Both the position numbers and the translations under genes were made by a program. The notes under the pieces are model-generated. The model saw only the letters and a program-made list of their open reading frames with translations. It ran no database searches and had not been told where the DNA came from. Positions 1,789 to 34,044 of a stretch of DNA of 34,578 bases are shown piece by piece; position 1 is the stretch's first letter, and every line of letters begins with the position of its first letter. The stretch spans positions 1 to 34,578 of the IMG/VR virus record IMGVR_UViG_3300018080_000084. One strand, 5' to 3'. Origin of the DNA: a virus.

Positions 1789-2058
1789 TTAGCAGTCCCA
1801 CTTTCTGAGTGCTTTGTTTATGCGACTATCGGGGTCCTTCGCAGTCTTAGCACTCGTGTTTTTCTTCTTCATCCCTTCCATGCGAGCGCAAAACGACTTG
1901 CGTCGCTTAGCCGCCTTGGGGCTTTTCTTCGCCTGCTCTTTGCTAACCGGAGCCTTAAGATTCATCCCCTGCTTCTTCGCACTCGCTCGACCCTTCTTGT
2001 TTAGGCCGCCTTTGGGGTTCTTGCCCTCTTTCCTCTGCCACGCTGGTGATTTTGCCAC
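1789..2058 (-). CDS. DUF6321-like basic phage protein
   Basis: This is an 89-residue, very basic protein with the pattern W.RKEGKNPKGGLN.KGR, LKAPVS, KSPKAAKRRKSFCARM and SRINKALRKWDC, which I recognise as the DUF6321-type family of small phage proteins. No biochemical function is known; the charge suggests DNA or RNA contact. I prefer the GTG at 2058 because AGAGG lies six bases upstream and it begins just before the conserved part. The ATG at 2097 would add 13 residues but has no good Shine-Dalgarno. The gene overlaps the end of the zinc-ribbon frame by 104 bases. Confidence 0.8.
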   Translation of the reverse strand: MAKSPAWQRKEGKNPKGGLNKKGRASAKKQGMNLKAPVSKEQAKKSPKAAKRRKSFCARMEGMKKKNTSAKTAKDPDSRINKALRKWDC

Positions 2059-2455
2059 AACACGCCTCTCTGTTGACTGGTTGAAGGGTCGCACCATACG
2101 GCACGTCTCTATCTGATGCCTCTGTCATATTCTTGGCATCCTGCCTGCATCGGAAACAGGTTGTTCTACCCCCGTTTTCCACTACAACGTGTACCCAGCC
2201 ACAGGCTGCGCACTTAGCTAAATCCTTGGTGAACGCAGGAGCAAAATGACCACACTCGTCATCATTACAAATGCCACAACAGTCACTAGCCACAGGCAAT
2301 TCTCTGCCACAGCGCTTGCACCTATGTAAGTTTTTCCAACTGTCCGGCTGGTCATTCACATCAAATGGGCCATTACACTTTAGGCACACACCTGTCGGAT
2401 TTTGCAACACCGTCTGTTTACACTGAGTGCAGACCATCCACTTGAAGTTATTCAT
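1955..2455 (-). CDS. Multi-zinc-ribbon protein
   Basis: This 166-residue protein is built of cysteine pairs: CTQC/CLKC near the start, CKRC, CCGIC, CAAC and CFRC up to about residue 105, so it should bind several zinc ions in rubredoxin-like knuckles. Such proteins in phages are often nucleic-acid or protein binders, but nothing more specific shows. ATG 2455 is chosen because GAGG lies six bases upstream; the ATG three bases earlier is too close. Residues after about 112 are hydrophilic, R, E and G rich, and overlap the DUF6321-like gene, so the natural domain probably ends sooner than the frame does. Confidence 0.7.
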   Translation of the reverse strand: MNNFKWMVCTQCKQTVLQNPTGVCLKCNGPFDVNDQPDSWKNLHRCKRCGRELPVASDCCGICNDDECGHFAPAFTKDLAKCAACGWVHVVVENGGRTTCFRCRQDAKNMTEASDRDVPYGATLQPVNREACCGKITSVAEERGQEPQRRPKQEGSSECEEAGDES

Positions 2456-2648
2456 CATCGTCCTCAATAACCCGCTCGTCCTTTATGTCAGGATTAGAGC
2501 AATACACCCTGCAATCCATAGGCACATCTGACTTGTCATGGCGGACCTGTATATGTCCCTCCATCGTCGCACCCTGCAGAATGTTGATAACTTCAGAACG
2601 TTCCAACTCGATTGTTACGACCTTTCTAGTCTCCACTGTGCCAATCAT
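2448..2648 (-). CDS. Small acidic hypothetical protein
   Basis: This is a 66-residue protein with a beta-like first half (VETRKVVTIELERSEVINIL) and an acidic tail ending EDDDE. No domain is recognised. The ATG at 2648 has GAGG a few bases upstream and lies 23 bases inside the end of the RusA-like gene; the stop overlaps the start of the zinc-ribbon gene. Position and coupling indicate a real early gene, with unknown role. Confidence 0.65.
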   Translation of the reverse strand: MIGTVETRKVVTIELERSEVINILQGATMEGHIQVRHDKSDVPMDCRVYCSNPDIKDERVIEDDDE

Positions 2649-3272: not shown

Positions 3273-3579
3273 TCCGGCTCACCTCTTTACGCTCGCTAGA
3301 TAGTGTTTGTAGAAACTTGTCATGCTTCGCCACAAGCCAGTCATGGTCAAGGCTAAAGAACCTTGACAGGCGAATTAACTCCTCGTCATAAGCTCCGCGT
3401 GGCATGTCTCCGCATTCAATCTTTTTGTATCTGTGTCGCTCTAAGCCGAGGTATTCCGCCGCGGCAAACTGCTTGAGCCCCATCATCTCTCTACAGAGGC
3501 GAATGACACCGGGGAAGTTGGCTTTGTCCAGCTTAGGTTTTAGCTTCTCTATGTTACGTTTATATATCTCTTCAATCAC
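3178..3579 (-). CDS. XRE-family (Cro/CI-like) regulator in the replication region
   Basis: This 133-residue protein has an XRE-type HTH at about residues 23-62 (VIRLCREMMGLKQFAAAEYLGLERHRYKKIECGDM) followed by helices to about residue 90. It is probably a DNA-binding regulator. The start is GTG 3579, with GGAG nine bases upstream, overlapping the helicase loader stop. The last 40 or so residues (SERKEVSR onward) are hydrophilic and overlap the next gene by 95 bases; the functional domain likely ends before that. Its position inside the operon rather than at the divergent promoter makes a modulator more likely than the main repressor. Confidence 0.8.
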   Translation of the reverse strand: MIEEIYKRNIEKLKPKLDKANFPGVIRLCREMMGLKQFAAAEYLGLERHRYKKIECGDMPRGAYDEELIRLSRFFSLDHDWLVAKHDKFLQTLSSERKEVSRNVWDTVKSARGFSDSREDGGNRRISEAQAGA

Positions 3580-4132
3580 GTCGTCTGTCTCCTCCGATAA
3601 GTTTGATTTGTGTCCCGACCAGGATTCTACTGACCATTGTCTCGCCGTATGCCTCTTTCATCGCCTTGGCATTAAGGTTGGTGGTTATGATGGTCCGCTG
3701 GCAATAATCCATGCGCCGGTCAATAAGGCTGATGAGCCATTCGCGGAAGCCTTCGGTGGGCACTTTGACACCCATATCATCAAGTACGAGTAAGTCTGGT
3801 TCGAAATATCGCTGTAGAAGCCCATAAACGCTGCCTGAGCGCATTTCGTCGAGCCACTGGTGGTACATCATACCTTGCTTCACGAAACGCGATTCTGGGG
3901 CCTTCTGTGGCTTTTTCGCATATTGGGCCTGCATCCAGCTCTTAAGCATGTGGCAAGCGAGGGTGGTCTTCCCAGTGCCGTTATCGCCGCTTAGGATACA
4001 GAACGGCTTGTCGCCCACCATCCAGTCCTTGCACTTGGAAAGGACGTCTTGCTCCTGCTGGGGCCGCTTCTCCATCAAAGGCCAAAATGCTGGGGGGATT
4101 CCCCACGAGTAGTAGTGGTTAGAAAGCGTCAT
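3572..4132 (-). CDS. dnaC: DnaC-like AAA+ helicase loader
   Basis: This 186-residue protein has Walker A GDNGTGKT at residues 49-56, Walker B LLVLDD at 114-119, a sensor-1-like TTN at 150-152 and an SR (R169) placed like an arginine finger. This is the core of DnaC/DnaI-type loaders, which deliver the host replicative helicase to the origin. It follows the O-like initiator with a 14-base overlap, the classic initiator/loader pair (compare lambda O and P). It is shorter than E. coli DnaC (245 residues), lacking a long N-terminal helicase-binding region. ATG 4132 is preceded by GGGG at good spacing. Confidence 0.92.
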   Translation of the reverse strand: MTLSNHYYSWGIPPAFWPLMEKRPQQEQDVLSKCKDWMVGDKPFCILSGDNGTGKTTLACHMLKSWMQAQYAKKPQKAPESRFVKQGMMYHQWLDEMRSGSVYGLLQRYFEPDLLVLDDMGVKVPTEGFREWLISLIDRRMDYCQRTIITTNLNAKAMKEAYGETMVSRILVGTQIKLIGGDRRRD

Positions 4133-4970
4133 CGTACTGCCCCTTTGCCTCTTCAGAGAGACATGGATTGCTGTTTGACTTCTTGACCTGACCGCCGTTA
4201 GCTAGACGCTCCTTACGCTGTTCGAGCTCCTTGCGTCTCAGTTCATCTTCATCGAGGGCTTTGAACACCCACCGCCTGAGCGTTCGGTTGTCGTCCTTTT
4301 TCCACTTCGAGGCTGGGGTATCTTCCTTCCACTGGCTGAGGTGGTCGTATGCCTGCCGGACTCGCTCTGAGCCGAAGTCGCAGACAAGCCTTGCATGCTC
4401 AAGGTCCGTTGTCTTGACGTGTGGTGCACGGATGACCTTCTCGCTGCGTTTCCTTTTTGGTTTGGCAAGAGAAGGCACATCTGGCGCGACCGCGGCGACC
4501 GGCGCAGCCGTGTCGCTATACTCCCGTAAGGGTTCTTTTTCTTTTGAAAAGTCTTTCTTTTGTATGTCAACTGGTTGTACAAGCCCCCTGTCAACTGGTT
4601 GTACAAGCCCTTGTCTATTGACTTGACTAGGGTGTCCACTGAGTTGACCTTCATCATCCTCTTCCTTGGGGACATGGACGATGATTCTATAGCCAGTTGC
4701 CTCATATCCATGCTCCTTGGACGCATTGCGCGTCTTCTCGATGAGCCCCTTGGAGATGATTATGTTGATTGCGTTGATGGCTCCCTGCTTGGAGGTCCCT
4801 GTCATCTTTACAATTTGGCTTAGGGAGATACCGTCTGAAGTCTTGTGCCATCCGAAGGTCTTTCTTGCTACGCACATCAGCACCTTGAACTCTGCGTGTG
4901 ACAGCTGAGCCATCCAGTAGTCGAAGAAGCAATTAGGGACCTGGGTGTAATTTGGGGCTTCAATACCCAT
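4119..4970 (-). CDS. Lambda O-like replication initiator
   Basis: This is a 283-residue protein. Residues 1-100 form a winged-helix domain of the phage replication O type (YTQVPNCFFDYWM, then LSHAEFKVLMCVARKTFGW, and SLSQIVKMTGTSKQGAINAI). The central part, about 108-140, contains a repeated GLVQPVD and is the site of DNA repeats at 4565-4650. The C-terminal 180-283 is helical and basic and probably contacts the helicase loader or helicase. The arrangement mirrors lambda O: N-terminal origin binding, origin repeats inside the gene, and a DnaC/P-type protein next. The ATG at 4970 has GGTGAG nearby and overlaps the preceding tiny gene. Confidence 0.88.
   Translation of the reverse strand: MGIEAPNYTQVPNCFFDYWMAQLSHAEFKVLMCVARKTFGWHKTSDGISLSQIVKMTGTSKQGAINAINIIISKGLIEKTRNASKEHGYEATGYRIIVHVPKEEDDEGQLSGHPSQVNRQGLVQPVDRGLVQPVDIQKKDFSKEKEPLREYSDTAAPVAAVAPDVPSLAKPKRKRSEKVIRAPHVKTTDLEHARLVCDFGSERVRQAYDHLSQWKEDTPASKWKKDDNRTLRRWVFKALDEDELRRKELEQRKERLANGGQVKKSNSNPCLSEEAKGQYDDAF
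4530..4650. other. Candidate replication origin: iterons plus T-rich tract inside the initiator gene
   Basis: Two exact 22-base copies beginning TGTCAACTGG lie at 4565-4586 and 4589-4610 (period 24). Degenerate copies start with TGTC at 4612 (TGTCTATTGACTTGAC) and 4634 (TGTCCACTGAGTTGAC). A T-rich strand of about 34 bases (4530-4563, runs of T with few G/C) adjoins the exact copies. Tandem initiator-binding repeats followed by an easily melted stretch within the initiator gene is the lambda ori layout. Function is inferred from this layout; the repeat also encodes the doubled GLVQPVD in the protein. Confidence 0.65.
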
Positions 4971-5073
4971 AGCTCACCCCCAGAGTGACCGTTTTTGCTT
5001 GCTGCTGTAGAGTTTGGTGTGGTATAGTGTGTGGCATAATGCAACACCTCTGGTTGTGGTTTTCGTTTCTCAT
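4960..5073 (-). CDS. Tiny hypothetical protein (37 aa) before the initiator
   Basis: This frame starts at ATG 5073, overlapping the upstream stop (ATGA), with GGGAGGAG seven bases upstream. It encodes 37 residues, rich in N, Q, H and T and with a CC pair. Its end runs 11 bases into the initiator gene. Support comes from the strong Shine-Dalgarno and the tight coupling on both sides. It may serve mainly to couple translation. No similarity recognised. Confidence 0.5.
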   Translation of the reverse strand: MRNENHNQRCCIMPHTIPHQTLQQQAKTVTLGVSYGY

Positions 5074-5183
5074 GCGACTCCTCCCAAGGTTGTTGATTTG
5101 TTAAAAGCCCACGAATGCTTCCCGGCGTCGGTGGGTTTTTTCTTTTTAGTTGCTCTTTTGTTAGACCGAAATCCTCTACTCAT
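5070..5183 (-). CDS. Tiny basic protein (37 aa), first gene of the early leftward operon
   Basis: This 37-residue frame starts at ATG 5183 with GGAG six bases upstream. It begins MSRGFRSNKRATKKKKP, so the N-terminus is strongly basic, and ends in GGVA. It could bind nucleic acid or be an antitermination-type basic peptide (lambda N is also short and arginine rich at its N-terminus), but that is only suggested by charge and by its position as the first early gene downstream of a structured leader. ATGA overlap with the next tiny gene supports real translation. Confidence 0.6.
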   Translation of the reverse strand: MSRGFRSNKRATKKKKPTDAGKHSWAFNKSTTLGGVA

Positions 5184-5231
5184 GTTAGTCTCCTCGCAGT
5201 GACAGTCAGTTTTTAACGCAAAAGGGCGTTT

Positions 5232-5270
5232 TTAAGGCTGCCTGTTGCGTATCACGCTCGTTCTGAGCAT
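5232..5270 (-). CDS. Possible 12-residue leader peptide
   Basis: ATG at 5270 follows ACAGGAATACC, so AGGA is seven bases upstream, and the frame stops at TAA after twelve codons. It sits directly behind leader element copy 1 and ends before the next coding start. A similarly placed ATG follows the other two copies (the ParB-like start, and an immediate ATG-TAA before the portal gene). Translation of this short frame could influence folding of the leader, but this is speculation from position. Confidence 0.3.
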   Translation of the reverse strand: MLRTSVIRNRQP

Positions 5271-5314
5271 GGTATTCCTGTGAGGGCCTGGCAGCTGGTG
5301 GTGCGGTAGCCAGG
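5271..5314 (-). promoter_or_regulatory. Leader hairpin element, copy 1 (before the early operon)
   Basis: On the minus strand a stem CCTGGC/GCCAGG encloses a 16-base loop containing CCGCACCACC. Four bases after the stem comes CACAGGAATACC and then ATG. It is nested in the larger inverted repeat 5220-5325. The loop shares ten bases with copy 3 (31370-31413) and the 3' motif is shared with both other copies, while the stem sequences all differ. Confidence 0.6.
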
Positions 5315-5338: not shown

Positions 5339-5620
5339 CTATAAAAAACTTATTGCATTGTTGGGAAGGACTTTCTTAGGTATTCCCTGACGACGCACAC
5401 GTCTGCGCCTACCATTGTTACCTAAAGCGCTACCGTCCATGATGCTAGCGGCCGACACTCTGCCATAGGTAAATTCTTCTATGCGCTCAGCCAATATCGG
5501 GCTTGGCGGTCTGTGCCCATTCATCACCAGCCCGAAGTGTGTGCGACTTACTCCCACCTCATGAGCGAACTGCCCCTGGGTATATCCATTATCTACTATC
5601 CAATCTCTCAAAATCGTCAT
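5339..5620 (-). CDS. XRE-family HTH regulator (probable early repressor or Cro-like)
   Basis: This 93-residue protein has an HTH at about residues 8-42 (WIVDNGYTQGQFAHEVGVSRTHFGLVMNGHRPPS), followed by a helix that ends the DNA-binding fold and a basic tail (RRRRVRR near residue 70). The ATG at 5620 is chosen because GGAGG lies five bases upstream; the upstream ATG at 5671 has none. It is divergent from the recT operon, with two inverted repeats between them, the normal position for a phage switch regulator. There is no C-terminal dimerisation/peptidase domain, so it is more Cro-like than a full CI. No integrase was seen. Confidence 0.82.
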   Translation of the reverse strand: MTILRDWIVDNGYTQGQFAHEVGVSRTHFGLVMNGHRPPSPILAERIEEFTYGRVSAASIMDGSALGNNGRRRRVRRQGIPKKVLPNNAISFL

Positions 5621-5685
5621 CTGTGCCTCCAAACCGCGATAGCTTAGCATTTTTTGGTATATTAGTTCCATATTTGCTTTTTCTG

Positions 5686-5744: not shown

Positions 5745-5774
5745 GCGATAATGAAAACACAGGAGCACCACACC

Positions 5775-6086
5775 ATGTTTGAACGAAACGCAAGCTGGTA
5801 CGAACCAGAATATGAACAAACACCAGAAGACTACGGCTACATACACCAAGATGACCTGCCTGACCTCGAAGGAATGAGAGATTGGCTGCAGGGCGTCGTG
5901 GAGGCAATGTATAAGACGGGCGATGTCATGGAAATGGAACGCTGTCTAGATGAACTTTGCCACGCATTAGACGTGCCTATGGTAGCGGCAGACCCGGCCG
6001 TTGAAAAAAAGAACCAAAACCGGTTGATGCATTGGTACCTCGGTTACCAACGGGCACAAATCGACCACATGAACCACAGGAGATAA
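5775..6086 (+). CDS. Hypothetical protein, first gene of the recombination operon
   Basis: This is a 103-residue acidic protein rich in Y, W, M and E; no domain recognised. Residues about 35-80 are helical (MRDWLQGVVEAMYKTGDVMEMERCLDELCHAL). ATG 5775 is selected because AGGAG lies nine bases upstream; frames upstream of it lack a ribosome site. It ends four bases before recT. Its place ahead of recT suggests an early, possibly recombination-associated accessory. Confidence 0.75.
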   Translation: MFERNASWYEPEYEQTPEDYGYIHQDDLPDLEGMRDWLQGVVEAMYKTGDVMEMERCLDELCHALDVPMVAADPAVEKKNQNRLMHWYLGYQRAQIDHMNHRR

Positions 6087-7330: not shown

Positions 7331-8178
7331 TCCAGGGGACAGAAGAATGGTTGCAAATGCGGCGTAAATTTATAGGCGCAAGCGACGCTCCTATCGTAAT
7401 GGGTGTATCACCTTGGCGCACTCCTTTCCAATTGTGGCAAGAAAAGCTCGGGATGGCACCAGCACAAGAGGAAACTGCTGCGATGCGCCGCGGGACTGAG
7501 CTAGAACCAAAAGCCAGGGCGGCCTTTGAAGCTGAGACGGGCATTGATGTATTTCCTCAAGTCGTCTTCCATCCCGAACACAAATTTATGATGGCATCCA
7601 TGGACGGCCTTAGTCTTGATGGTCAAGTTGCTGTCGAAATCAAGTGTACCTCTTCTAAATACCATGAAATGGCATTAGCTGGGGAGGTCCCGGAGCATTA
7701 TATACCACAGCTTCAGCATCAGCTGGCCTGTCTCGGCATACCAATGCTTTACTATTTTAGCTTCGATGGTTATAATGGCGCCGTTGTCGAAGTAAAACGC
7801 GACGATTGTTACATAGAGACGCTTATCAAGGAAGAGTCTGGGTTTTGGAAGTGCATCAAAAGCAAAACCGCTCCAGAGCTGACGGATAAGGACTATGTAG
7901 AGCGTGAGGATGACTCATGGCTTTGCTATGCCAAGCGCCTACGTGACATTGATGCAGAGCTTAAAACGCTTAAGGAAAAGCGTGAGCAGCTCCGTGAAGG
8001 GCTCATAGGACTAGCTGATGGCCAAAGCACACGTGGTGGCGGCCTGACGCTTTCCAAGTCCTTCCCTCCAGGGAGGGTGGACTACTCCAAGGTTCCTGAA
8101 CTTGAAGGAGTAGATTTGGAGCCATACAGAAAAGAACCACGAGAAACTTGGAGGTTGACATGTACGCACTCTTCCTAG
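7315..8178 (+). CDS. YqaJ/lambda-Exo-type 5'-3' exonuclease
   Basis: This is a 287-residue protein of the YqaJ viral recombinase (PD-(D/E)XK) family. GASDAPIVMGVSPW lies at 21-34, RRGTELEPKA at 58-67 (E62/E64), SMDG with D97, and VEIKC with E108 and K110 as the catalytic D...ExK, followed by QLQHQLA near 132-138. It resects double-stranded ends to give the single strands on which RecT acts. The C-terminal about 60 residues hold a coiled coil (LRDIDAELKTLKEKREQLREGL). The strong GGGGGAG Shine-Dalgarno lies inside the HNH gene end. Confidence 0.93.
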   Translation: MGNHLIQGTEEWLQMRRKFIGASDAPIVMGVSPWRTPFQLWQEKLGMAPAQEETAAMRRGTELEPKARAAFEAETGIDVFPQVVFHPEHKFMMASMDGLSLDGQVAVEIKCTSSKYHEMALAGEVPEHYIPQLQHQLACLGIPMLYYFSFDGYNGAVVEVKRDDCYIETLIKEESGFWKCIKSKTAPELTDKDYVEREDDSWLCYAKRLRDIDAELKTLKEKREQLREGLIGLADGQSTRGGGLTLSKSFPPGRVDYSKVPELEGVDLEPYRKEPRETWRLTCTHSS

Positions 8179-28971: not shown

Positions 28972-29199
28972 TTAGTACTTGTATGCGTACGCTTTGTCGT
29001 CGTAGCCACGGTTAGGGCATGGCTTCTTGTCGTACATGTTCATGGGCATAGCCTTCACTGCTTCAGGCTTGCGGTCATGGCCCATCATTCCTTTCGACTC
29101 GTGACGACGGTCTTTCATGCTTTGCATCTTTCCGGCTTCTTTGCCGTCACGCATGCCAAGACTTTCGTCCATCCTGTCGTTATATCCTTGTTTCTTCAT
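28972..29199 (-). CDS. Small Met/Lys/Asp-rich protein
   Basis: This is a 75-residue, very hydrophilic protein with repeated M, K, R, D and G and no hydrophobic core (KMQSMKDRRHESKGMMGHDRKP), ending in Tyr-rich KAYAYKY. Such proteins are seen between portal and capsid genes in some podoviruses and are probably disordered. A perfect GGAGG six bases before ATG 29199 shows it is translated, overlapping the portal stop by 20 bases. Confidence 0.72.
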   Translation of the reverse strand: MKKQGYNDRMDESLGMRDGKEAGKMQSMKDRRHESKGMMGHDRKPEAVKAMPMNMYDKKPCPNRGYDDKAYAYKY

Positions 29200-31237
29200 C
29201 GAAAACCTCCGAGGTTTGTTGGATTACAGCCCCAGGAGGCGGACTCTCCGCAACCGAGGCAGAAAGCATCACGTCGTCTTGTTTAATCTGCTCTTCCTCG
29301 ACCTGATTTTGCTCGCGCATCATCTCGGTGATGAGTAAGGCTTCCTTAACGTTTTGCAACTCCATGGCGTCGAGTTCTTTCATCGCCCGGATTTGGTCGT
29401 AGACGGCTTGACTTCTGTCCTTCACGGCTGAACTTGCGCGCTCGTCCTCCAGGCCCATATTGGCGACCGAGCGGGTGAACCGTTCTTTGGCGCCGGCAAC
29501 CTTCTCGAGCGAGCTCGACTGAGCAAGCTGCATCTGTGCATTGATGAGCTCGTTTTGCACTTGCTGCTGTTGCTGCGCCTGTTGTGCTTGAGCTTGCTGC
29601 GCTTCTTGCACCTGTTCCATAAGCTCGGCTTTACCCTGTAGAGGAGCAGCCTTAAGCAGTGCGTCGGGAGGAATGGGAGCACCTAGCTGGGTAAGGTCAA
29701 CCAGCTGGCGGAAGTAAATTTGACGCTGGGTGTCGGTTAGGACGCCTTCCTGAACCACGCAGTCATATTTAGTAAATTTCTTCTCATAAAATTCAGGTGT
29801 CGGCTCGTCATTGATAATTCGCTTGACCTTCTCGGGGGTCCAGGTCTGAATGAGCTTGAGAATCTTCATCGAAAGTGCCTTCTGAGAGAAGCGAAGGTTG
29901 TCGAAGACATCCTGAAGGTTGGTGATGGCCGCTCCTTGACGGAGAAGCATCATGATTCCTGATTCATTACCACTTTCCGGCATGCCGAAGGCGGCGTCAT
30001 TAATGCCGGCAATTTCCTTGATGTCCGCGTCGAACTGCTGCTGAAGCTGGAACATTGAAGGGGGAATCTGAGCGGGCTGAATTTTTTCGATTGCACCGGG
30101 TAGAGCGTCCTTCTCGCGCCACACGACCTTGCCCTGTGATGCCTGAAATAAGCTTCGTGGGTTTACAACAGAACCCTCGGTAGCAATCCAGCCCGAATTG
30201 ATTTGGCTGTCAAGGAGGTCAATCATCTGACTTCGACGGCGGTTGGCCTCGCGCTGCGGGTCAATCATGCAACGGATGAGAGACTGGCATTTCAGCGACC
30301 ACTGGTCGGATTCCGGCTCGAAAATGCTTACGAAGGGGACAAAGGGGTATTCGTCTAAACCGTAGGGGTTCTCAACCGTGCGCATCACCTGGTCGTTGAC
30401 GATGATGTGCATCTCAATATACTTGCGCTGCCTGGTAGACAGCTCGAACGCGTCATTGATTTCTTTGAGCCGCTTGAACTGCTCCCGGTCGCCTTCCCAG
30501 TCGATGTACTGGCCGGTCTCCTGGTCGATGAGGATATTCTGTGTGGTCCACTTTTGCTCGTAATACTCGTTGTAGGCCATCAGGTCCATACCCGAAGGCT
30601 GACGCTGATAGGGTAACCACGTAAACTTGTCGTCCCTTTCCCAACCAATTTTATGCATCTCATAGACCTCTTCCTCCTGACCAGGAAGGAGGGAGGCTAC
30701 CTGCTGCACGCTGAGATATTTACGCCTTAGAACGTATGAGCAATCCGAAAGGTCAAGTCGCGTAAAGTAAGGGTCAAGGATAAAACCGTTCCAGGGCTCG
30801 CGTGCAAAGCGTATGTCACCGTTAACAGGGTCATCACGATAGTCCATCCATACTGAGGCAAGATTCCAGCCGGTCTTGACAGCGCCGCCAAAGCAGTCAG
30901 ACACCATGCGATAGCCATCTGAGGACTGCATGACATAAAGAAGCAGCTGAGAAAGTTGGTCGGCTGTGGCTTGGTCAGAGTCTTCGATTGGTGTAACAAT
31001 AGAAGAGAGGCGGTGCTGTCGCTGATAGCCCGTAATCATGTTAATGACAGGGCGAATACGGTTGAAGACGAAGGTATTTCGTCCCTCGTCATGGAGGGCG
31101 CGCTTCTCAGACTCGTCCCACTGCGCTCCCAAATAAAACTTCATATCCCTTTCTGCTTCTGGGAAGAAGCTATCCCAAGCTCGGTAGGCTTCGTTATAAG
31201 CCGTGTCGAACTGCTGGATAATACCTATATCACGAGC
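29180..31237 (-). CDS. P22-like portal protein
   Basis: This starts at ATG 31237, giving 685 residues; an upstream TTG would add 12 but is less likely. The pattern is that of P22-like (gp1) portals: WDSFFPEAERDMKFYLGAQWDESEKRALHDEGRNTFVFNRIRPVINMITGYQRQHR near the start, then a long stem/wing region, and a C-terminal Q-rich coiled coil (VQEAQQAQAQQAQQQQQ near residue 540) that may form a barrel-like extension. It forms the dodecameric DNA channel. It is preceded by the structured leader 31238-31467. Confidence 0.93.
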   Translation of the reverse strand, partial: ARDIGIIQQFDTAYNEAYRAWDSFFPEAERDMKFYLGAQWDESEKRALHDEGRNTFVFNRIRPVINMITGYQRQHRLSSIVTPIEDSDQATADQLSQLLLYVMQSSDGYRMVSDCFGGAVKTGWNLASVWMDYRDDPVNGDIRFAREPWNGFILDPYFTRLDLSDCSYVLRRKYLSVQQVASLLPGQEEEVYEMHKIGWERDDKFTWLPYQRQPSGMDLMAYNEYYEQKWTTQNILIDQETGQYIDWEGDREQFKRLKEINDAFELSTRQRKYIEMHIIVNDQVMRTVENPYGLDEYPFVPFVSIFEPESDQWSLKCQSLIRCMIDPQREANRRRSQMIDLLDSQINSGWIATEGSVVNPRSLFQASQGKVVWREKDALPGAIEKIQPAQIPPSMFQLQQQFDADIKEIAGINDAAFGMPESGNESGIMMLLRQGAAITNLQDVFDNLRFSQKALSMKILKLIQTWTPEKVKRIINDEPTPEFYEKKFTKYDCVVQEGVLTDTQRQIYFRQLVDLTQLGAPIPPDALLKAAPLQGKAELMEQVQEAQQAQAQQAQQQQQVQNELINAQMQLAQSSSLEKVAGAKERFTRSVANMGLEDERASSAVKDRSQAVYDQIRAMKELDAMELQNVKEALLITEMMREQNQVEEEQIKQDDVMLSASVAESPPPGAVIQQTSEVFDEETRI

Positions 31238-31467
31238 CATCGCACACCTAATCCATTTGCTATCCCCCAGCAAGGATAGGATGCGACGCCCGGATGCTGG
31301 TCCGGAACGGGTTAATTACTCCCTGCGTCGCGACCTAAGTCGCATTTCTGTTTGTCCGGCTTTACATCCGGTATTCCTGTGTAGCCTCCCAAAAAAAGGG
31401 GTGGTGCGGCTACGTAATTCTTACACTATCTTTAGTTTTAAAATGTACCGTATGTCTGTATTCTTTA
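31238..31467. other. Non-coding, structured leader between terL and portal
   Basis: This is the longest gap in the late block, at 230 bases. On the minus strand it holds leader element copy 3 (31370-31413), a perfect GCGAC-TTAG-GTCGC hairpin (31330-31343), an ATG-TAA minimal frame (31362-31367) and CCGG repeats able to pair. I see no gene and no convincing promoter. It probably forms the folded 5' end or an internal control region of the portal/capsid mRNA. Confidence 0.55.
31370..31413 (-). promoter_or_regulatory. Leader hairpin element, copy 3 (before the portal gene)
   Basis: Minus strand: stem GTAGCC/GGCTAC (31408-31413 with 31381-31386), with a 21-base loop starting GCACCACCCC and containing a CCC/GGG inner pair and seven T. 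The stem runs straight into ACAGGAATACC, followed two bases later by ATG-TAA. Compared with copies 1 and 2, the stem bases change but stay paired, whereas GCACCA and ACAGGAATAC are kept. Confidence 0.6.
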
Positions 31468-34044
31468 CTAGTACCTATGTGCATATTGAGCCTGAAGAAG
31501 TTCGGCATCCTCCTCCGTCATGCGGTCCCTCTTGGCACGATGGTAAGCAACGGCTAGATAACGGAAGGCGTCACACGAATGAGAGCTCCAATCATGGACA
31601 GGTTTGTCGCTGTACACATTAAGCCTTTCGTTGAAGTGCTTGTGGTAGTTCTCGATGCACTTGATAAGGTATTTGCACTGTTTCGAGTCTATCCATAGCC
31701 TATGGAAGATGCCCCGCGCAAGCTCTATTCCTTCCTGAATAGGGAGATTTGGCACTACCTCGAAGTTGATGCCTAGTTCGCGTGCCATGTCGATGCGGGT
31801 TTTTGCCCCATGCCCCAGCTCGCGAACCTTGATGTCATGCGGCGCATAGTGCGTGCCGTATTGCCAGGTGTTGTTTTCCTCTTTTTTTCGAAGAATCCTG
31901 GCGTAATGGTTGAGGCCCTCACCTTGTGCCTCGTAATGGTCGATAATGTGGATTTCCTGGCCTACGGTCTGAGCAAAAATGATAGCTGTCGAATCTGATA
32001 CGCCAATATCCCAATAAGTATCGACTGGGCAGTAAGGGTCATAAGGAACGCTCGTAATCCGCCCCTGCATCTCAGCCTTGTTAAGGTATTTCGCATAGTA
32101 GCTCCCCTCCTGTCCTTGGTCAAAGTTGCAGAAATATTCCTGCTGGATGAGGTGCTCGCTCATACCCTCCATCCGCTCGATTTCCATGTCTTTTTCGGTT
32201 AGGACACCGGTGTCATCGATGGTTAATCTTTGACAAAACCAGTCCGGATTATCCTCCGCCATCAGGAACATGTCGTACGCATGGTTGCGGCCGCGTGGTG
32301 TGTTGTGGGATATAATTCCGTTCGAAAAGAACGAATGGGTCTCTGGTATAACAAAATCGTAAACCTCTCCCTCGCTCTGCTCAATATCTACGATTTTGTC
32401 CCAATAAAAGGCATCTGATAAAAGATTTTGTATATAGAGGTTTGGTCGCATGTCATTGAGACGCCGCAACATCCGATAACTAATTGAGGATGGGTTGGCT
32501 AATATAGCCCGCGGGTACCATCCAATTTGTTTTGCATCGGTGGGAACCAGGTCTCCTCTTCCCTGTTTAATTTTTTCCGACAAACCTTCCTTTTTCCGCT
32601 GTTTTCGGCTTAACCGAAATCCAATTTCCTCGAAAAACTTCCACGCGAAATATCCCTCTATTTCCAAGTTTGATATTTCACAGGGCACCGTAACTCTTTT
32701 GGTCGGCGGAGTTGTTCTGGAGGATAAACGACTGACAATTCCGAATATGAGCAGCAACACCTGAAGCGATTTAAGAAGCTCCTTAGACGAACTAGTTGCC
32801 TTTACTTGCCCACTGGTTTTAGAGCTTGCACAGCCATCTCCATCGAAATATCCTTTTAAAAATTCTACTATTTGAGGTTTTGAGCACTCAAACAATTTTA
32901 AGGGCAGCCTTTTTTGTTTTGCGGTTCCAGATAGACCAAACCACTCAAACAGGTTTTGCACCTCCCCCCCACTGTAGATATGGTGTATTCCATCCTTTTG
33001 GGTTTTGAAGCCCATAGACTGTAAATACTCGACTATTTGTGGGTCGGTGTTGGTTATCGTAATCTGAGCGCCTCTTGCTTTCTTTGGCGACGCCATTGAA
33101 CCTTCCGCCAGATACAACCCCATAAGATACATAATCTCTAAAGGCAGCCACTCTTTCGGTAGGCTTTTCCACCCTCCCTGTTTACTTTTTGGAATGGGGG
33201 GCTTCCATTTAGAAAAGTCGAAATCATTCTTACTAAATATTTGTTGATTTAGCTGAATAGGGAGATGGTCACCGGTCTTCCATGTGGCTGCCTCCTTCCA
33301 TTCCTGTCCGTCCCACAAAGGATGGTTGGGCGTACACTCTATTTCATAACCTTTTGCGGTCTTCAGTTTTATTAGGTGTTTTTTTCCTCCGGAGTAAAAC
33401 TGTTCCGCCTTATGAAAACCTCCCAACCCATAAATGTTTTTGTCTATTTCAGTAAATGACCCGGTAGGTTCTGTTATGGACTCTATCGGTCGTAATCCCT
33501 GTTCTGTCAGTACCAACGTTCCGCGTTTGACACAAAAGTTAAACACCGCCCATCCCTCGTTCTCCCGAAGGATTGGACGCACAAAGTTCCACGTCTTGGG
33601 GTCCTGTAGGCTGTATTCAGAAAAAACGCAGCCTATGGGGTTGATACCGACGTTAATAATCTGGTCCGTACCCATAATCTGGATTACAGAGCCATTCTTC
33701 AGCGTCACCCTCATCTCCACCGAATTGGGCTGTCCATCGATTAACTGGCTGGGGATGTAATCGATAAAACGTCTCCCGTCCTTGTTGGAGCCGTCCCACA
33801 AAATACGTCGTCCCAATCGACTCGTAGGAAAGAAATAGACGTACGTCCCCGTCCGCCCACAACACGCTTCGCGGATTAAGTAATTCCAGCACGTGACCTC
33901 CTTGCCGGCCCGGCGATGCCAGATGAGGACCGCTCGCTTGTAACCTTCGTCCATTGCTTTGAGGAAATCTAGCTGATACGCCCGAGGCTCAAAATCAGGA
34001 ATCTTTATGACGTTTTTTGGCTTCTTCGGCTGCCATTTCACCAT
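31468..34044 (-). CDS. terL: Terminase large subunit interrupted by an intein
   Basis: This is an 858-residue precursor. Exteins (1-170 and 582-858) join to a 447-residue TerL. Features: a Walker-A-like WHRRAGKEV at 42-50 (K48), a Walker-B-like VFSEY at 140-144 (E143), and the nuclease aspartates D679 (YWDIGVSDS) and D825 (SHSCDAFRYL). The TPRG coupling motif begins at T582, the first residue after the intein. TerL packages DNA into the head and cuts it. TerS overlaps its start by 50 bases. The usual Walker A threonine is Glu here and the Walker B acid pair is SE, both seen in some phage terminases. Confidence 0.94.
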   Translation of the reverse strand: MVKWQPKKPKNVIKIPDFEPRAYQLDFLKAMDEGYKRAVLIWHRRAGKEVTCWNYLIREACCGRTGTYVYFFPTSRLGRRILWDGSNKDGRRFIDYIPSQLIDGQPNSVEMRVTLKNGSVIQIMGTDQIINVGINPIGCVFSEYSLQDPKTWNFVRPILRENEGWAVFNFCVKRGTLVLTEQGLRPIESITEPTGSFTEIDKNIYGLGGFHKAEQFYSGGKKHLIKLKTAKGYEIECTPNHPLWDGQEWKEAATWKTGDHLPIQLNQQIFSKNDFDFSKWKPPIPKSKQGGWKSLPKEWLPLEIMYLMGLYLAEGSMASPKKARGAQITITNTDPQIVEYLQSMGFKTQKDGIHHIYSGGEVQNLFEWFGLSGTAKQKRLPLKLFECSKPQIVEFLKGYFDGDGCASSKTSGQVKATSSSKELLKSLQVLLLIFGIVSRLSSRTTPPTKRVTVPCEISNLEIEGYFAWKFFEEIGFRLSRKQRKKEGLSEKIKQGRGDLVPTDAKQIGWYPRAILANPSSISYRMLRRLNDMRPNLYIQNLLSDAFYWDKIVDIEQSEGEVYDFVIPETHSFFSNGIISHNTPRGRNHAYDMFLMAEDNPDWFCQRLTIDDTGVLTEKDMEIERMEGMSEHLIQQEYFCNFDQGQEGSYYAKYLNKAEMQGRITSVPYDPYCPVDTYWDIGVSDSTAIIFAQTVGQEIHIIDHYEAQGEGLNHYARILRKKEENNTWQYGTHYAPHDIKVRELGHGAKTRIDMARELGINFEVVPNLPIQEGIELARGIFHRLWIDSKQCKYLIKCIENYHKHFNERLNVYSDKPVHDWSSHSCDAFRYLAVAYHRAKRDRMTEEDAELLQAQYAHRY
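32302..33534 (-). mobile_element. Intein with LAGLIDADG homing endonuclease inside terL (411 aa)
   Basis: This encodes residues 171-581 of the terL frame. Block A: Cys171 with VKRGTLVLTEQGL. Block B: T238-P-N-H241. Two LAGLIDADG motifs: LMGLYLAEG (307-315) and LKGYFDGDG (396-404). Block F/G: YDFVIPETHSFF and SNGIISHN, ending His580-Asn581, followed by Thr582 as the +1 nucleophile. All expected splice residues are present, so it should self-excise (class 1, Cys/Asn/Thr). It is inserted between F170 and the TPRG motif, a site where the extein is very conserved. The endonuclease motifs retain the acidic residues, so homing activity is plausible. Confidence 0.95.

Follow-up and report, generated by a model that had tools for sequence, protein, structure and literature searches.

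A previously undescribed small RNA hairpin with genome-specific loop letters in a family of tailed phages

A 34,578-base virus record, IMG/VR IMGVR_UViG_3300018080_000084 (the whole stretch of DNA analyzed, here called the window), carries three copies of a short hairpin, which raises the question of whether this is a genuine RNA element of the phage and what might read it. The three copies, noted in a first, sequence-only reading, are real. The 11-mer GTATTCCTGTG occurs exactly three times (488 to 498, 5272 to 5282, and 31371 to 31381), against about 0.02 exact matches expected by chance in 34.6 kb on both strands by a simple estimate, and each occurrence adjoins a six-pair stem with GCACCA in its loop. 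Since all three matches lie on the plus strand, the element reads on the minus strand. As had been claimed, the three stems are unlike yet paired. Copy 2, the early copy (5271 to 5314), follows the cro-like gene and forms its stem, P1, from 5314-5309 and 5292-5287 (CCTGGC/GCCAGG), with the loop motif GCACCACC at 5304-5297 and the tail CACAGGAATAC at 5282-5272. In copy 1, the parB copy (487 to 528), P1 joins 528-523 with 505-500 (TTGGCG/CGCCAA), GCACCA lies at 521-516, and the tail lies at 498-488. Copy 3, the portal copy (31370 to 31413), pairs 31413-31408 with 31386-31381 (GTAGCC/GGCTAC); its loop again holds GCACCACC, a short CCC/GGG lid makes up a second stem, P2, and the tail spans 31381-31371. 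The offset of GCACCA from the 5' arm is 4 nt in the CCTGGC stem, 1 nt in the TTGGCG stem, and 0 nt in the GTAGCC stem. An ATG follows each copy, as also claimed, but only at copy 1 does it start a protein gene, the ParB-like gene at 486: the ATG after copy 2 opens a putative 12-codon ORF (MLRTSVIRNRQP; 5232 to 5270, minus strand), and the one after copy 3 reads ATG-TAA, with the portal gene starting about 130 nt further on, at 31240.

The first and last 123 bases of the record are identical, so the map closes at 34,455 bases. The genes on the minus strand are ordered cro-like HTH, O-like, DnaC-like, ParB-like, terS, terL, portal, and major capsid protein. Copy 2 is preceded by the cro-like gene (5339 to 5671, minus strand), which has a PHROG transcriptional repressor match and an HTH_3 score below the cut-off, and is followed by the replication initiation O-like gene (4119 to 4970, minus strand) and, after it, the DnaC-like gene (3572 to 4132, minus strand). 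Copy 3 lies upstream of the portal protein gene (29180 to 31240, minus strand; phrog_156, E 4e-89). That the copies stand where the early, packaging, and portal blocks begin was borne out, and relatives carry the element at orthologous positions. A divergent early operon, including a RecT-like protein, an HNH protein, and a YqaJ-like protein, runs on the plus strand from 5775. Coding and non-coding positions are approximate, since simple rules were used to call ORFs. In the window, scans for promoters and terminators returned hits at about chance level. Some further features were seen in passing. The terL gene (31468 to 34044, minus strand; 858 amino acids) harbors an intein-like insertion with a LAGLIDADG domain (PF14890, PF14528). 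A palindrome like TGTAAAGCGGCTTTACA at 638-654 recurs near the portal leaders of L002, L003, L005, L006, and L021, with a half-site after copy 3, and is a possible operator. Finally, the contig L153 (JAAKFB010000001.1), placed in a metagenome-assembled genome of Chlamydiae, has a capsid gene whose product is 83% identical to that of the window; this placement is a weak hint at the host and may be a binning artefact.

Taken singly, the window copies fold no better than their shuffles (z of -0.2 to -0.8), and the hairpin of copy 1 is absent from its predicted minimum-energy fold; the case for structure therefore rests on the relatives, three of which fold with z near -5. No U-run stands directly 3' of the 3' arm, where a sense-strand intrinsic terminator would have one, and the tail is AC-rich in all copies. 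Rfam 15 gave no match to the element at the gathering score, the only match being a tRNA in L002, and by comparison with Rfam and the open-access literature the element is a previously undescribed small phage RNA hairpin.

Relatives, all of them metagenomic contigs, were fetched by their portal, capsid, and ParB proteins. The portal query yielded 21 relatives and the capsid and ParB queries about 150 more loci; DnaC-like and RecT queries gave one relative each. In the 21 portal relatives, the tail 11-mer of the window was absent next to a hairpin, which first looked like a refutation, but reading the orthologous regions revealed the element with other letters. An exact search of viral contigs with the window's own loop and tail gave 33 matches, all of which look coding or due to chance. 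ACAGGAATAC is common to the copies of the window phage only, and relatives have tails of their own (ACACACGGA, ACACACAGAGC, AACACGAGG). The search of related phages, which had been put forward as a test that could refute the element, left it standing, since it recurs in relatives at corresponding positions, namely downstream of a cro-like gene and upstream of parB, the portal gene, the major capsid gene, a post-capsid gene, and a tail gene.

In G001 (contig 3300018080_000348), for example, the copy after the cro-like gene reads GCAGTT-cccc-GCACCACC-gaga-AACTGC, the one before parB reads GTCCGA-GCACCACGTATACCAA-TCGGAC and lies within a longer stem, and those before the portal region and another late gene read TAGTCC-GCACCACATAT-GGACTA and TAGCACT-GCACCACAAAT-AGTGCTA; ACACACGGA follows three of these four copies. 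G002 and G003 also have a copy after the cro-like gene, orthologous to copy 2, and portal copies orthologous to copy 3 are found in many relatives. Upstream of portal and elsewhere, GAACCAC, ATACCAC, or AAACCAC takes the place of GCACCAC. The family-wide consensus consists of P1 (4 to 11 bp, freely covarying), NNACCA(C) after the 5' arm, an optional short P2, the 3' arm of P1, 0 to 13 nt, and an ACAC-containing tail, which is (A)ACACG(C)GAGG in most relatives. A long apex folds into a second short stem, as in CTACC-gaaa-GGTAG (L110) and CTGCC-atga-GGCAG (L128), so that the loop motif forms a 5'-side bulge between P1 and P2. The element recurs up to six times per phage genome. A reading as a DNA promoter was rejected, as the spacing of loop motif and tail varies by about 10 to 45 nt and the stem sequence is free.

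The claim of a selected RNA structure was upheld by these relatives, whose stems are new and still paired at orthologous places, with compensating changes. Among 54 sites picked by loop and tail only, 31 had a P1 of at least 5 bp, whereas swapping the 5' flanks among sites left 7.4 on average and 16 at most. Since the 54 include sites that share descent and others that are due to chance, the count is a guide and not an exact probability. A curated set of 44 instances with 34 distinct stems from 18 phages shows all four Watson-Crick pair types at each of five inner stem positions. These instances were chosen by pairing and position, and a fairer number comes from an automatic scan requiring any NN before ACCA, a stem, an ACAC-type tail, and no long ORFs on both strands. 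This non-coding scan found 39 sites with the ACCA core versus 2 to 16 with fourteen other four-letter cores.

The two letters preceding ACCA differ between phages: NN is GC in the window phage and GA, AT, or AA in others. Among the curated copies, NN was concordant in all 10 phages with at least two copies, and none of 20,000 shuffles did as well, in a test that ignores relatedness and on a list that leaves out the exceptions of the automatic scan. In that scan, G018 had five AT and one AA, G019 and G020 five GA each, G025 two AA, and G029 two GA. Exceptions numbered one each in G018, G024, G028, and G003 and two each in G023 and G001; those in G003 and G024 include overlapping readings of the same hairpin, and the others lie outside the recurrent positions. 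The clearest comparison is that of G018 and G019, with capsid proteins 97% identical and the P1 stems TGGCT/AGCCA (portal) and GCTCA/TGAGC (capsid) in common, where NN is AT in every main copy of the former and GA in every copy of the latter. In G031, NN is AA with shortened stems, GGCT/AGCC at portal and GCTC/GAGC at capsid. Since NN agrees in nearly all copies within a phage and switches together between phages, a trans-acting partner is suggested; a kept stem with NN changed everywhere is best explained by a partner molecule of matching specificity. This putative partner may be a phage protein, an antisense RNA, or the RNA polymerases of different hosts.

Comparison of gene presence and absence, together with that of G018 with G019 and G020, gave candidates for the trans factor, none of them convincing. 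One is a small multi-CxxC zinc-ribbon protein (window 1955 to 2467, minus strand), present in 13 of 14 element-bearing phages and also in one phage without the element, which makes it a weak candidate for an RNA-binding protein. Further candidates, likewise not convincing, were the first gene of the divergent operon and a helix-turn-helix protein. The tiny basic product at 5070-5183 had been suggested as a possible binder. This 37-amino-acid ORF was the only find in a search for an arginine-rich N-type protein, and the suggestion was not supported, as neither a homologue in the element-bearing relatives nor a Pfam match turned up for it. Overall, the earlier interpretation of the element was thus partly supported.

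The window order of cro-like gene, element, O-like gene, and DnaC-like gene repeats the lambda order PR-cro-nutR-O-P. Before the capsid gene, tail and SD coincide; in G018 and G031, the tail seems to fall among the first codons of parB, and in most early copies it lies far from any ORF. Because of the cro-element-O-P order, the spread along one strand, and this variable position of the tail at an SD, in apparent parB codons, or away from ORFs, we infer that the reader does not depend on translation. The reading that we rank first, at a probability somewhat short of even and as judged from sequence, is that of a nut/put-like nascent-RNA signal with a type-specific partner. The element would be a cis-acting RNA recognition site repeated along the main leftward transcription unit, first after the cro-like gene and then at further places on that strand, in the manner of lambda nut or HK022 put. 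While still nascent at the passing RNA polymerase, hairpin and tail would be bound by an NN-matched partner, either a phage protein or the polymerase of a particular host, and binding would change the onward course of the polymerase, allowing expression of the early, packaging, head, and tail blocks.

Recognition of the nut loop differs by phage type, and the NN letters of the element are likewise phage specific. With lambda nut the element also shares a hairpin with a conserved single-stranded box and a copy between cro and an O-like gene. In contrast to nut, its conserved box follows the hairpin, and copies also stand before packaging, portal, capsid, and tail genes; furthermore, it has no boxA consensus (the match to YGCTCTTWA that comes nearest lies on the opposite strand and over 100 nt away from copy 2, with none close to copy 1 or copy 3), and no N- or Q-like gene was recognized. 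HK022 put, an RNA of about 70 nt with two long stems, occurs twice (putL and putR) at nut positions; this two-hairpin RNA is read directly by RNA polymerase, through the zinc-binding domain of the beta' subunit and without protein factors (PMC9378689). The element resembles put as a cis RNA element at nut positions, in the bulge of put stem I, and, judged by eye, in the short hairpin that closely follows the early copies of several phages. It differs from put in its core of 25 to 45 nt, its up to six copies, and its phage-specific loop. The put RNA lies downstream of both early promoters; the divergent operon here has a linear motif only. Several results count against the nut/put-like reading: besides the lack of a boxA and of a recognizable N- or Q-like gene, many copies are placed singly at structural genes, as nut and put are not, and in 10 of 11 phages the 420 nt past the early copy yielded no sense-strand terminator, whereas the copy behind the capsid gene can have a terminator immediately before it. 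Directly before the element after the capsid or a late gene, a GC-rich hairpin with a T run was seen in G001 (7440-7470), G018, G019, and L122; phage T7 similarly has a terminator after its capsid gene.

The strongest rival, which we nevertheless consider rather unlikely, is a translational operator, in which a phage RNA-binding protein would recognize NNACCAC next to the ribosome-binding site and either repress or stimulate translation initiation at early and structural genes. In its favor, the SD about 14 nt before the ATG of capsid, post-capsid, and tail genes lies within the tail, and MS2 coat protein and T4 RegA sites are comparable as a short hairpin or linear motif at ribosome-binding sites. 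However, early copies have no adjoining gene start in most phages, the hairpin abuts the ATG without a visible SD in some parB copies, and nothing predicted sequesters the SD. Unlike the MS2 and RegA operators, some copies of the element are away from gene starts, and a binding protein is only hypothetical. A tail that is variously at an SD, probably in parB codons, or free of ORFs speaks against a purely translational role. CsrA/RsmA sites resemble the ACA(R)GGA-like tail of the window in containing GGA, but the tails of most relatives (AACACGAGG) lack GGA. The linear leaders of the divergent early operon also favor an operator. In the window, the leader ACACAGGAGCACCACACCATG (5757 to 5777, plus strand) has tail and loop motif without a hairpin and is suggestive only; across phages, these SD-NNACCAC-ATG leaders have letters matching those of the hairpins, namely GC (window, G001, G003), GA (G021, G023), and AA (G025). 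As family-wide evidence they are weakened by the occurrence of ACACGGAGNACCACCATG in other phage contigs without a visible family link, and the linear form is partly a generic ribosome-binding site.

If, instead, the early copy served on its other strand as the terminator of a small RNA, the loop GUGGUNN of this antisense RNA could pair with NNACCAC at all other copies, and a single RNA locus would explain the concerted switching of NN. In the early copies listed, the antisense strand has a T-rich run after P1 (its enrichment in early over late copies was judged by eye), and in most early copies a further strong antisense terminator lies 100 to 300 nt on. We regard this as quite unlikely: there is no consistent antisense promoter between the two terminators, the order of tail and loop in the linear leaders is wrong for continuous pairing, and the terminators would also be explained by an oop-like antisense RNA that ends at the outer one. 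Strong intrinsic terminators between the element and the rep gene, on the strand opposite the rep operon, for instance at 5101-5140 and 5213-5238 (plus strand) in the window and in G021, G028, and G029, suggest such an oop-like RNA. Similarly improbable is a role in mRNA processing, in which polycistronic RNA would be cut near the element and the hairpin would guard the new 5' end. Repeated copies directly before highly expressed structural genes fit this reading, and a hairpin before an unpaired AC-rich tail, as in the element, is a known shape of 5' stabilizers, but neither a fixed NNACCA nor letters changing together in all copies would be needed. Chance or shared ribosome-binding-site composition might account for an SD in the tail of several copies and for the unremarkable folding energy in the window, but is very improbable given the enrichment over other motifs, the flank-swap controls, the orthologous positions, and the concerted loop letters.

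Directly downstream of copy 3, a separate pseudoknotted RNA, the portal leader, extends up to the portal ATG (31238 to 31331, minus strand). In an alignment of 21 phages (A5), it comprises three nested helices, a downstream hairpin, and a six-pair pseudoknot. Of the cells of its 25 pairs, pseudoknot included, 93.7% are standard pairs, and both sides have changed at 21 of the 25 pairs across the 21 phages; the covariation score is 0.64, whereas shuffles give 0.24 and slid versions no more than 0.16. It also occurs in relatives where the hairpin element was not found (L159/G009 and L085/G006) and has no Rfam match. The portal leader is thus a second, strongly supported structured RNA without an Rfam family.

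Returning to the hairpin element, we tentatively propose, as possible rather than probable, that one RNA module at up to six positions is read by one partner, with a two-letter code that differs between close relatives and is switched everywhere together; transcripts would be addressed separately, and the module would represent a new class of phage expression signal. If so, a whole family of uncultured tailed phages would control its operons by a compact RNA address, and natural specificity switches between near relatives, such as AT in G018 and GA in G019, would let code and reader be mapped by swaps, as was possible with nut/boxB for lambdoid phages.
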